From: Moorella thermoacetica
GTDB lineage: Bacteria > Bacillota > DSM-521 > Neomoorellales > Neomoorellaceae
Assembly (NCBI RefSeq): GCF_001267405.1
Contig: NZ_CP012369.1
Coordinates: 2,460,402-2,524,401 of the forward strand
DNA: 64,000 nucleotides
Reading direction: 5' to 3'
The notes beneath the pieces were generated by a model that was not told where the DNA came from, searched no databases, and saw only the letters and a list, made by a program, of their open reading frames with translations. The translations under genes were made by a program, and so were the position numbers. This document shows positions 17,760 through 54,347 of this stretch, piece by piece (the stretch's first letter is position 1; each line of letters begins with the position of its first letter).

Positions 17760-17893
17760 AGTCACCTCCTGTCTGCTTAAAAAGTTAAAGCCCCCGCAGA
17801 CAGGCGAGGGCAATAGCTGACTAACCGTTTAGACGGTTAACTTTTTTACCTCGGCAGGCAAATTTAAGCCGATGGCACCTGCTGTCTACGGCA
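17760..17893 (-). promoter_or_regulatory. L10 ribosomal-protein leader RNA with attenuator
   Basis: The minus-strand leader of rplJ contains the L10-leader pattern: GTAGACAGCAGGTGCC, then a CTTAAATTTGCCTGCCGAGGT element that pairs back with the 5' part. It is followed by a 7-bp stem (CCCTCGC with GCGGGGG) and an interrupted U-run just before the rplJ ribosome-binding site. The family binds the L10-L7/L12 complex as feedback control. Recognition is by eye. Confidence 0.85.
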
Positions 17894-17919
17894 AACCAAT
17901 ATTTAGTTAACTGGTATAT

Positions 17920-29984: not shown

Positions 29985-30262
29985 AAATAAAAGAGCCTCT
30001 CTCCGGTCAGGGACGAGGGGCTCTCGCGGTTCCACCCTGTTTGAGGATTACTCCTCCACTCAACGGGCAATAACTTCCCGGGCCGTAACGGGGCCTGCCG
30101 GCAGGGCCTACTTTTCCTTTTCTTGAATTTCAGCCCTGCAGCTAACGGGTGCATTTCAGCGCCCGCTATCCAGGACCACTTCCAGCCGCTGATGGCCCCT
30201 CTCTGGGGATTTACGGTACGCTTACTCTCCCGCTCATCGCAGTTATTATTTTCATCTCAATC
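29985..30262 (-). promoter_or_regulatory. Cysteine T-box riboswitch of the cysE-cysS operon
   Basis: The leader has the T-box core AGGGTGGAACCGCG (30025-30038) and a stem I with specifier codon TGC (Cys; 30151-30153) in a GAAATGCAC context. A terminator (AGAGCC with GGCTCT, then TTTATTTT, 29984-30024) precedes cysE. Uncharged tRNA-Cys should favour the antiterminator and turn on the six-gene operon. Confidence 0.93.
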
Positions 30263-35579: not shown

Positions 35580-35609
35580 TTAAATAATATTCTCCTGAAT
35601 GGATATAAT
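35580..35609 (+). promoter_or_regulatory. Promoter-like element before the structured noncoding RNA
   Basis: A perfect TATAAT (35604-35609) lies in an AT-rich stretch. The best -35 is weak (TTAAAT, 18-base spacing). It directly precedes a long G/C-richer noncoding stretch that ends in a strong plus-strand terminator. Confidence 0.55.
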
Positions 35610-35615
35610 AGAAAC

Positions 35616-36050
35616 AACAGGGTCGGCCGGGACCGAGTCCAGAAAATTACCGGGTCTAAAACGGGTTTGGTAATTTTCGGCCAAAGGTAACCAGCAGGTC
35701 GAAAGGCTTACTGGTCAGCCGGCGGGCAGATCAGTAGCTGTTCGTCACGGCTTGGCGTTGGTCTGCAGGGATTAATGTCAGGTCGGCAAAGATAGTTGCT
35801 GGTCGAGCTAAGATGGTTATAGGTGCCGCAGGCTTTTGACAAAAAAGCTCGAGGTTCGTCGAGGTCGAGAGATCTCTGCGGGCTTCTCAGGTATTTATGA
35901 CCATCGAGCAAAGGTTATTGTAGTTATCGTAATGGTCTATGGTAGCCGCAAGGTTGCCGTGGGCTATGCAGGTAGCTGCAGTAGCCGGCGTTAAGGTCCT
36001 GGTCGGCTTTGTAAAATGGAGGCTGCTCCCTCGGAGCGGCCTCCATTTTT
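35616..36050 (+). ncRNA. Candidate large structured noncoding RNA (about 435 nt), unassigned
   Basis: No credible reading frame exists on either strand. The segment has many local helices. GAAAATTACC (35642-35651) pairs perfectly with GGTAATTTTC (35669-35678). GCAGATCA pairs with TGGTCTGC (about 35726-35766), GACCAT with ATGGTC (about 35900-35937), TAGCC with GGCTA, and TGCAG with CTGCA (near 35967-35980). GGTC/GGTCG words recur throughout. A promoter-like -10 precedes it and an excellent terminator ends it. I find no tmRNA, RNase P, SRP or riboswitch core. It may be a known class I do not recognise, or new. Confidence 0.6.
36013..36050 (+). terminator. Strong intrinsic terminator of the structured RNA
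   Basis: AAATGGAGGC-T-GCTCC pairs with GGAGC-G-GCCTCCATTT around a three-base loop. The stem is about 15 bp with one symmetric mismatch and ends in a run of five T. No coding gene on the plus strand needs it, which supports an independent RNA. Confidence 0.92.
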
Positions 36051-36206: not shown

Positions 36207-36818
36207 TCATGGTCTGATTAGTGGCAGGGAGGAGGCTGTTTTCATTAGCTTGTGGATCATTGTAAAGAATACGGGTACCAGTCCCGGGTCAAACTGGGTC
36301 CCGGCGTTATTTTCGACTTCCGCTAGGGCATTTGGCAACGTACGAATTTGCTGGTAGGGTCGTTGGGAGGTCATGGCCTCAAAGGCATCGGCCAGGGCGA
36401 TAATCCTGGCCCCCAGGGGAATATCCGGCCCCTTTAAACCATTATATCCTCCACCATCCCAGCGTTCGTGGTGATAGGCAACAAATTCCAGAATACCAGG
36501 GCTAATACCTGAAGCTGTCAGCAACTCTACCCCGGCCCGGGGGTGATTTTTGATTACCAGCCATTCCTCCCGGGTTAAAGGACCTTTTTTCATAAGCAGC
36601 GCATTGGTTATAGTAATCTTGCCGACATCATGGAGCAAAGCCCCGGCATAAATAGCCTGGCACTCTCCCTGGTCCATCCCATAGATCCGGGCCAGGTTCA
36701 ATGCCAGGCTAGCAACGCCCAGGGAATGGCGATAGGTAAAAGGAGAATGGGCCGCCAGCCGACCCAACCAGTTATGTATCGCCTGCCATTCCAAACCATA
36801 GTCATCCTCTCCCAGCAC
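36207..36818 (-). CDS. HD-GYP domain protein, predicted c-di-GMP phosphodiesterase
   Basis: HD-GYP enzymes hydrolyse cyclic di-GMP. Up to 203 residues, with HDxGK at 63-67 and HHERWDGGGYNG at 116-127; the canonical GYP proline is asparagine. The GTG at 36818 has no ribosome-binding site; a TTG eight codons in, after GGGAGAGG, may be the real start. It lies directly downstream of a c-di-GMP-I riboswitch, which suggests ligand-linked control. No sensory domain is seen. Confidence 0.9.
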   Translation of the reverse strand: MLGEDDYGLEWQAIHNWLGRLAAHSPFTYRHSLGVASLALNLARIYGMDQGECQAIYAGALLHDVGKITITNALLMKKGPLTREEWLVIKNHPRAGVELLTASGISPGILEFVAYHHERWDGGGYNGLKGPDIPLGARIIALADAFEAMTSQRPYQQIRTLPNALAEVENNAGTQFDPGLVPVFFTMIHKLMKTASSLPLIRP

Positions 36819-36871: not shown

Positions 36872-36966
36872 CCTGGAGCCGGCAGCCTGGCGATCATAGC
36901 CCTTTTAAGGACCTTAGACCCATGGCTTTGTGTCCCCACCTTTCGATGGGTTTACCCTTTTGAGCA
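36872..36966 (-). promoter_or_regulatory. Cyclic di-GMP-I (GEMM) riboswitch
   Basis: The minus strand shows the GEMM-I core: GGGTAAACC, a GAAA-capped hairpin (CCCATC/GGTGGG), then GACACAAAGCC (consensus GACGCAAAGCC), ATGGGTCTAA, and the 3' part with GCCAGGCTGCC. The order and spacing fit the class. The next gene on this strand is the HD-GYP protein, with a terminator between them. Confidence 0.9.
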
Positions 36967-41174: not shown

Positions 41175-41274
41175 TGGCGGGAGTGTGTGGGAATCGAACC
41201 CACCGCGCCCGGGGTTAGCCCGCGCGCCAACTGGATTTGAAGTCCAGGCAAGCCACCAGGCCCGATCCACCCCC
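41175..41274 (-). tRNA. selC: tRNA-Sec (UCA anticodon)
   Basis: A tRNA of about 100 bases with anticodon loop CTTCAAA (UCA, reads UGA), a very long GC-rich variable arm, a discriminator G and encoded CCA. The acceptor begins GGGGGTG and pairs with CACTCCC, with a possible GxA at the eighth pair. It is the selenocysteine tRNA; selA and selB lie 5-8 kb away on the same strand. Confidence 0.95.
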
Positions 41275-53063: not shown

Positions 53064-53693
53064 TCAACATCCCTCCAGGCAGGCCTTTACTTCGGCATCA
53101 GATACCTGGCGAAAGTCCCTATAAAACTGGCCCACGGCGTAAAAGGGCTCCGGGGCGGCCAGGCAAACCAGGTCTTCAACCATGGGCCTGAGGACTGTCA
53201 GGGTATCCGGCGGCGCCACGGGAACGGCCAGAACCAGGCGACGGGGTTTATACTTGCGTACGGACTTGAGGGCCGCCTTTATTGTTAACCCGGTAGCTAT
53301 TCCATCGTCAACAATTATAACAAGGCGCCCCCTCATGACCGGAAGAGGCCGGTTTCCCCTGTAAAGGGTCAGCCGGCGTTTAATTTCTGCTAGTTCGCGG
53401 TCAACGGCTGCCTGCAGGTCGGCTGGTGTCAGATGACAGGCCTCAAGGACTTTATCGTTATAGAGAACCGTCCCGTCCGGGGCCACGGCTGCCGCAGCCA
53501 CCTCAGGGTTGGCCGGCAGGCCAACCTTGCGGGGGATAATTAAATCCATTTCCGCGTCCAGGGCTTTAACTACTGGTACGGCTACCAGCACACCGCCCCT
53601 GGGAACAGCTAGGATCAAGGCCCCCTGGCCCAGGTAACCCTGCAGGGCGCCAGCTAACTGCTGGCCGGCATCCCGGCGATCTTTAAAAAGCAT
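53064..53693 (-). CDS. Phosphoribosyltransferase-domain protein
   Basis: This 209-residue type I PRTase-fold protein has the PRPP-binding motif VIIVDDGIATG (about 124-134) and an N-terminal LILAVPRGGVLVAVPVVKAL. The family of lone PRTase-like proteins has no fixed substrate. Its stop faces the yyaC stop three bases away. Upstream lies the 650-base noncoding remnant region. Confidence 0.88.
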   Translation of the reverse strand: MLFKDRRDAGQQLAGALQGYLGQGALILAVPRGGVLVAVPVVKALDAEMDLIIPRKVGLPANPEVAAAAVAPDGTVLYNDKVLEACHLTPADLQAAVDRELAEIKRRLTLYRGNRPLPVMRGRLVIIVDDGIATGLTIKAALKSVRKYKPRRLVLAVPVAPPDTLTVLRPMVEDLVCLAAPEPFYAVGQFYRDFRQVSDAEVKACLEGC

Positions 53694-54347
53694 AGAAAAC
53701 CTGCCTTCGTCCCTTCAAACTATTGCCCTGACTGGCGGGACAGGTCACCTTCAGGCACCGATTACGCCCTTAGCGTCATACAACCGGCTAGCATCGTTTG
53801 ATCTCATTCCATGGTCTTGGCAACAAGCGAAGACCGGCTCGGATTTCTCCAGCTTTAGCTGCTGGCGCTACAGCGCCCCATTGGGGACGCTTCCTCTTGG
53901 GCTTGACGCAGAAAGTAGACCTGCCTAAAGGTAGTTTGTCCACATAGTTCCGTAATTATGTAACGCCGGCGTGTATTTTTTCTGCTGTACCAGGGTACTG
54001 TTTTTACCTCTCTGGACGTCTCCCGTTCCAGGCCACCTCACACAGAAGCGTCTGTCCGTGGCCCAAGAGCAGGCCCACCGCCTCTACTATTAGCCTGGCC
54101 GGTCGGAGACCCCCCTCCCCTTCCCGGTGGGGGTAATCTCCGGTTGCCCTCTCGCCCTTACATCCACCTTTGATACTCCCACCACCAGGAGTTGCTGGCC
54201 ACGACGCTGTCCACAGTTTGCGCCGATTCTTCTACCCCCATGTCCCTGGCGGTGGTTACCTCCCCTTCAAAGGCGCCGTCATTGCGCACGGTCCTTTCGG
54301 AAACCAGTAATAACAATCCCTACGGGTCTTCTTCGATCCCCCTCACC
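53694..54347 (-). other. 650-bp intergenic region with strong inverted repeats; possible IS/TnpB remnant
   Basis: No intact gene. Minus-strand frames end in LLVVGVSKVDVRARGQPE followed by ITPTGKGRGVSDRPG (about 54093-54200), which resembles the tail of IS200/IS605-type TnpB proteins but is broken upstream. Hairpins: AGCGCCCC/GGGGACGCT (53872-53891), GGTCTT/AAGACC (53813-53835) and a GC-rich stem GGAGA...TCTCC (54105-54141). It could be a decayed transposon end, a structured RNA, or both. Confidence 0.35.

Follow-up and report, generated by a model that had tools for sequence, protein, structure and literature searches.

The locus and its transcript unit

Within the window (the whole 64,000-nt stretch of Moorella thermoacetica DNA that was analysed), the interval 35616-36010 on the forward strand, together with a terminator reaching to about 36050, is a gene for a large structured noncoding RNA. 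A PHP-domain gene and an HD-domain gene flank it, each encoded on the opposite strand, and the next gene, beyond the terminator, points towards the RNA. The unit comprises the following features:

35584-35589 (+), putative -35 element ATAATA; family consensus GNATA (two-block motif search)
35601-35610 (+), putative -10 element GGATATAATA of the forespore sigma-F/sigma-G type; family consensus GGNCATAMTA (motif search; PMC3789822)
35616-36010 (+), six-arm RNA (fold, covariation and homologues; the 5' end is inferred, about 6 nt past the -10 element)
36013-36050 (+), intrinsic terminator, a 17-bp stem (36013-36049) followed by a T-run (sequence and fold)

An earlier note on this DNA had read 35616-36050 as a 435-nt transcript, rich in helices and devoid of a usable reading frame, whose own promoter and strong terminator serve a noncoding RNA of a class that it did not recognise. 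This interpretation is supported. The unit is compact and of transcript size, no conserved reading frame was found, and both fold and covariation substantiate the helices in the interval. The terminator stem proved to be 17 bp rather than 15 bp, and the hairpin noticed at 35642-35678 as 10 bp long corresponds to a 16-bp arm, P2. The minimum free energy of the 440 nt starting at 35616 is -246 kcal/mol, compared with -147.9 +/- 5.5 kcal/mol for dinucleotide shuffles (z = -17.9), well outside what chance would give.

None of the 4227 Rfam 15 families, scanned as the earlier note had proposed, matches the interval at its gathering score; even at E <= 10 there were only chance matches, on the terminator and the flank. 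ROOL, GOLLD, raiA, HEARO and other large Rfam RNAs do not reach threshold in the interval, and neither ARAGORN nor Rfam calls the six-arm RNA a tmRNA or tRNA. Identity with OLE (RF01071) was rejected: its model has no match in the interval, and the true OLE of this genome lies at 1453247-1453867. The earlier comparison with OLE therefore holds for size and style only: this genome has OLE at a locus of its own, as do 36 of the 41 genomes examined. Likewise, the 6S RNA model (RF00013) does not match, and 6S RNA is found elsewhere in all 41 genomes. We found no earlier description of the RNA in the open-access literature, although one published elsewhere is not excluded; the main text of two papers on bacterial ncRNAs from GC-IGR analysis (PMC8632094, PMC11109978) mentions neither Moorella nor Thermoanaerobacter.

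Several other RNA features occur in the window: a c-di-GMP-I riboswitch at 36878-36966 (-), which scores 83 bits and immediately precedes the HD-domain gene 36207-36818; a selenocysteine tRNA gene at 41175-41274 (-); a T-box leader at 30006-30246 (-); and a ribosomal protein L10 leader at 17775-17909 (-).

Architecture of the six-arm RNA

In single-sequence folds, 87 of the 90 homologues form a central six-way junction with six arms. P1 closes the structure, P2 and P3 are hairpins, P4 and P6 consist of two parts, and P5 is also two-part, usually with an additional side hairpin, P5a. The architecture maps onto the window copy as follows:

35619-35634 (+), P1 5' strand, closing arm, pairs with 35995-36010; GNU/GNU at 35621-35623/36006-36008 (covariation)
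35635-35641 (+), junction linker J12; family consensus CGAGCCAAGA including flanking pairs (linker comparison)
35642-35678 (+), arm P2, 16-bp hairpin; GNU/GNU at 35653-35655/35665-35667 (fold and covariation)
35679-35685 (+), junction linker J23 (linker comparison)
35686-35720 (+), arm P3, hairpin; GNU/GNU at 35697-35699/35706-35708 (covariation)
35721-35728 (+), junction linker J34 (linker comparison)
35729-35804 (+), arm P4: lower helix 35729-35743/35790-35804, then an internal loop (covariation)
35749-35763/35770-35784 (+), upper helix of P4; GNU/GNU at 35750-35752/35781-35783 (covariation)
35805-35811 (+), junction linker J45 (linker comparison)
35812-35905 (+), arm P5: lower helix 35812-35827/35890-35905; side hairpin P5a at 35828-35850 (covariation)
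35851-35866/35871-35886 (+), P5b of arm P5; GNU/GNU at 35853-35855/35882-35884 (covariation)
35906-35912 (+), junction linker J56 (linker comparison)
35913-35986 (+), arm P6: lower helix 35913-35928/35971-35986, then a 3x3 internal loop (covariation)
35932-35947/35952-35967 (+), upper helix of P6 with a GNRA-type tetraloop; GNU/GNU at 35934-35936/35963-35965 (covariation)
35987-35994 (+), junction linker J61, runs into the P1 3' strand (linker comparison)

Covariation, which the earlier note had named as a test, is massive. It was measured on 57 aligned copies, with the RNAalifold consensus of the same alignment taken as the structure. Both sides have changed at 106 of the 150 base pairs, and 97.2% of the 8521 cells are paired. 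Pairing falls to 42-44% once partners are slid by one column. This control is biased towards the structure, because the consensus was derived from the same alignment; the count of double changes is independent of that bias. The alignment contains 1515 double-change cells as against 416 +/- 23 in shuffles, and none of 500 shuffles matches the observed value. Two natural truncations were also encountered, both retaining the junction and the lower arms: one (L017:3615-3940) lacks upper P5 and P6, the other (L021:3470-3831) lacks upper P3, P4 and P6.

The arms are internal repeats. A covariance model built on P6 alone (R1) also matches other arms of the same RNA, with E-values down to about 1e-13. 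The internal duplication suspected earlier is thus real, but the repeat unit is larger than the short module proposed: it is a whole arm plus its linker. Taken with their flanking pairs, the six linkers (CGAGCCAAGA, CGGCCAAAGG, CGGCGGGCAGA, CGAGCUAAGA, CGAGCAAAGG and CGGAGCGAAGG) have CGAGCNAAGR in common. The recurring GGTC/GGTCG words, noticed in the earlier note and confirmed here, are explained by a GGUC/GGCU element carried by the arms.

Wobble pairs occupy the same heights across the arms. With pairs numbered from the junction outwards, U.G stands at pairs 3 and 14 and G.U at pair 12. P2 shows only a weak signal at pair 3, and the signal at pair 14 is weak or missing in P4 and P5. In the 57 sequences, permuting positions within arms never gave as much agreement as was observed (p <= 5e-5), and the register appeared again in 33 further, independent sequences, all below 88% identity to the first set. 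In the symmetric element GNU/GNU two wobbles flank a single pair; the element is kept in 86-100% of copies at its six sites, and its middle pair varies (G-C, A-U or C-G) while the wobbles stay. At the DNA level a G.U pair is a mismatch, and therefore selection on the conserved wobbles acts on the RNA. A G.U pair allows minor-groove packing of a second helix and attracts divalent ions (PMC8793689). Wobbles in register on arms leaving one junction suggest that the arms pack in parallel; this is an inference without direct evidence, and descent of the arms from one ancestor could account in part for the matching positions.

Promoter, spread and association with sporulation

A two-block motif search in 62 upstream regions revealed GNATA-N14/15-GGNCATAMTA, with only these two spacings and 13.95 bits, compared with 7.0-7.4 bits for shuffled sets. 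The window copy scores 17.9 bits (in-sample), even though its -35 element lacks the consensus G; its -10 region happens to spell TATAAT. The earlier note had taken this word, present at 35604-35609, as the promoter. Judged by its sequence, a promoter is present, but one of the forespore sigma-F/G type and not a housekeeping one. TATAAT is not a conserved promoter element (a 94%-identical sister copy has CATAAT), no sigma-70 type -35/-10 pair was found at it in the window, and the element conserved in homologues is the forespore-type one at 35584-35610.

At a threshold of >=10 bits, the promoter matrix detects 98% of RNA copies (the training set), 2% of neighbour genes and 4.7% of shuffles. It also detects 73% of the spore-protein (SASP) genes of the same genomes, which were outside training and have a closely similar element. 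SASP genes are classical sigma-G targets; in the window's own genome a SASP promoter reads GCATAAAA-N11-GAACATACTA. Among those listed, RNA loci outside training have sites of >=9.5 bits, directly before the predicted P1 in those inspected. A GNATA-like -35 element and a (GG)NCATANTA-like -10 element at fixed spacing before the transcript meet the sequence criterion for the forespore regulon. The sigma-F and sigma-G elements of C. difficile resemble each other, and a G upstream of the -10 element marks sigma-F (PMC3789822). The conserved GG therefore indicates sigma-F, perhaps along with sigma-G. Judged from sequence and in the absence of expression data, the promoter appears to be of the forespore type, and the RNA is very probably transcribed in the forespore.

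Only one other site in the window is as strong, at 53959(-) with 18.2 bits. It lies within 53694-53990 (-), and a phosphoribosyltransferase-like ORF (53064-53693) follows about 240 nt later. We rejected 53694-53990 as a second such RNA: it is absent from the relatives searched, and its fold is close to that of shuffles (z = -1.25). The occurrence of an equally strong but unconserved site, like the missing G and the TATAAT spelling of the window copy, weighs against the forespore reading. A weak forespore-like site (10.2 bits, GCATATAA-N11-GGACTAAATA) was also seen at an OLE copy (L080), upstream of 1501; another OLE copy reaches no more than 5.4 bits.

Conservation, which the earlier note had proposed to check by BLASTN, is extensive. 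The RNA was recovered from every one of the ten congeners and from 22 of the 41 related genomes, and the matches cover most of the RNA in nearly all matching genomes. A degenerate DNA pattern retrieved 56 loci among 84,980 species genomes. A profile search confirmed all of them except one from Sphingobium (L068), a chance pattern match without the RNA. Titles among the loci include Moorella, Thermanaeromonas, Carboxydocella, Desulfofundulus, Desulforudis, Pelotomaculum, Propionispora and Lucifera; the MAG titles Deltaproteobacteria (L058) and Armatimonadetes (L075) may be binning errors. With R1, the RNA was detected in 32 of the 41 relatives and in 173 of 398 genomes sampled from the phylum (121 of 267 genera), although a few of the 173 rest on weak matches (E near 1e-4). 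At the sensitivity used, searches of 50,697 phages, 72,556 plasmids and IMG/VR yielded nothing. Some genomes have more than one copy: one contig bears two, 2.6 kb apart (L024:1325-1735 and L024:3938-4339), two loci are also present in Lucifera, Propionispora and some Selenomonadales, and several genomes match on two or three contigs.

The sporulation gene spoIIR is present in 332 of the 398 genomes. It accompanies the RNA in 167 of 173 RNA-bearing genomes, compared with 165 of 225 genomes without the RNA (Fisher p = 7e-11, uncorrected for ancestry). Of the six RNA-bearing genomes without spoIIR, at least one is plainly incomplete and a further one was assigned the RNA on a weak match only. In roughly half of the sampled genomes with spoIIR no copy of the RNA was detected, so sporulation does not in general depend on it.

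The neighbours of the RNA vary between clades. A conserved adjacent partner gene was considered and rejected: radA-like and PHP-domain genes adjoin the RNA only in the Moorella family, and other neighbours are found elsewhere. Since the neighbours vary and the flanking genes lie on the opposite strand, the RNA gene is free-standing and its product trans-acting. A fixed place upstream of one gene family, as expected of a cis-regulatory leader or riboswitch, is not observed. A 73-76-aa CxxC protein (GMGCLGC) occurs beside or near the RNA at four loci (L011, L021, L023 and L078), in four different contexts; this is too few to name it a partner.

Proposed role and relation to known RNAs

The six-arm RNA is a new class of large RNA, whose molecular role is open. 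We lean, without great assurance, towards a structural RNA that has a free-standing gene, acts in trans and is made in the forespore as endospores form. It would be transcribed by RNA polymerase carrying sigma-F, possibly also sigma-G, from its own promoter up to the intrinsic terminator. The product would fold into a pseudo-sixfold star, six arms of one repeated module round one junction, each module consisting of the linker CGAGCNAAGR and an arm with wobble pairs at fixed heights. The arms might then pack side by side in register via their wobble-marked faces, through minor-groove helix packing or bound divalent ions, and the resulting compact, stable particle might scaffold or organise something in the spore core. 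What the computation shows is the fold with its repeats, the register of the wobbles, the type of promoter, a gene that stands alone and the spoIIR link. Forespore transcription, arm packing and the scaffold role are all inferred, without expression data and without direct evidence for packing, scaffolding or a partner. The full version of the proposal is more tentative: a pseudo-sixfold RNA that arose by duplication of a single arm and that exists only in the forespore as an in-register packed particle, serving as a structural component of the spore or a six-valent scaffold, is possible, but we would not count on it.

A structural particle or scaffold is our leading reading, and its main rival is a multi-site decoy, a forespore RNA in which each GNU/GNU binds and titrates one copy of a dsRNA-binding regulator, much as CsrB titrates CsrA via repeated GGA hairpins. 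Six strongly conserved copies of a symmetric helix element per molecule, and the lack of a fixed genomic partner, are what such a trans-acting decoy would have. However, a decoy needs many sites but has no need for them to be equally far from a single six-way junction; the wobble register and the conserved linkers point to a defined architecture and hence against a decoy. Moreover, we know of no dsRNA-binding regulator of this type. On balance, the decoy is unlikely, though worth keeping in mind. A ribozyme or a similar catalyst, active in spores or during germination, would be in keeping with an RNA as large, intricate and widely conserved as the known large ribozymes. We find it quite improbable, as conserved unpaired letters are confined mainly to the repeated linkers and small internal loops, there is no single irregular core like that of RNase P or group I/II introns, and the arms are equivalent rather than specialised.

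That the RNA is an ordinary regulator under sigma-A housekeeping control, or else OLE or 6S in variant form, was suggested by the TATAAT spelled in the window copy and by a size within the OLE range. This is already disfavoured and very improbable, given that the spelling is neither conserved nor part of a sigma-70 type pair, that the same genomes carry OLE and 6S elsewhere and that no credible Rfam similarity appears even at E = 10. Long inverted repeats in an intergenic location could also mark a riboswitch or other cis-acting leader, a mobile element, or a palindrome under selection as DNA, but we regard these as barely credible. The RNA ends in a terminator, with the next gene pointing towards it and the neighbours changing between clades, which does not fit a leader; the absence of matches in the phage, plasmid and IMG/VR sets searched argues against a mobile element; and a DNA palindrome would not conserve G.U pairs, mismatches in DNA.

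The six-arm RNA is a bigger finding than the earlier note supposed. It matches no Rfam 15 family and yet occurs in more than 40% of the genomes sampled from the phylum. Six near-equivalent arms with wobbles at equal heights offer a direct, testable design rule for RNA helix packing. The promoter implies a large, stable, forespore-specific RNA, which raises the question of whether bacterial spores hold dedicated structural RNA, and the locus provides a concrete gene for deletion, imaging and structure solution.

Among known systems, OLE is similar in being large, highly structured and widespread in anaerobic and extremophilic Bacillota. It works as an RNA particle, a membrane RNP (PMC10898510), but differs in sequence and fold; the six-arm RNA has a forespore-type promoter and six equivalent arms. 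The raiA motif/ModT RNA, studied in C. difficile (PMC11706538), is another widely conserved structured RNA of Bacillota; there is no Rfam match between the two. Among sporulation-specific ncRNAs, csfG, which is forespore-specific, and Bvs196 are shorter than the six-arm RNA, and to our knowledge neither has a six-arm architecture. The length of Bvs196 is 294 nt (PMC9147052). ROOL and GOLLD, ornate RNAs that assemble via RNA-RNA contacts without protein (PMC12286853), set a precedent for the arm packing proposed here. Their dihedral symmetry is built from 8 or 14 copies, held mainly by kissing loops and A-minor contacts, whereas in the six-arm RNA the pseudo-symmetry lies inside one molecule and is marked by wobble pairs. 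In the along-groove packing motif, G.U reshapes the minor groove for a second helix (Gagnon and Steinberg 2002, cited in PMC8793689). That motif is known as a local contact; in the six-arm RNA the register is repeated on six arms.
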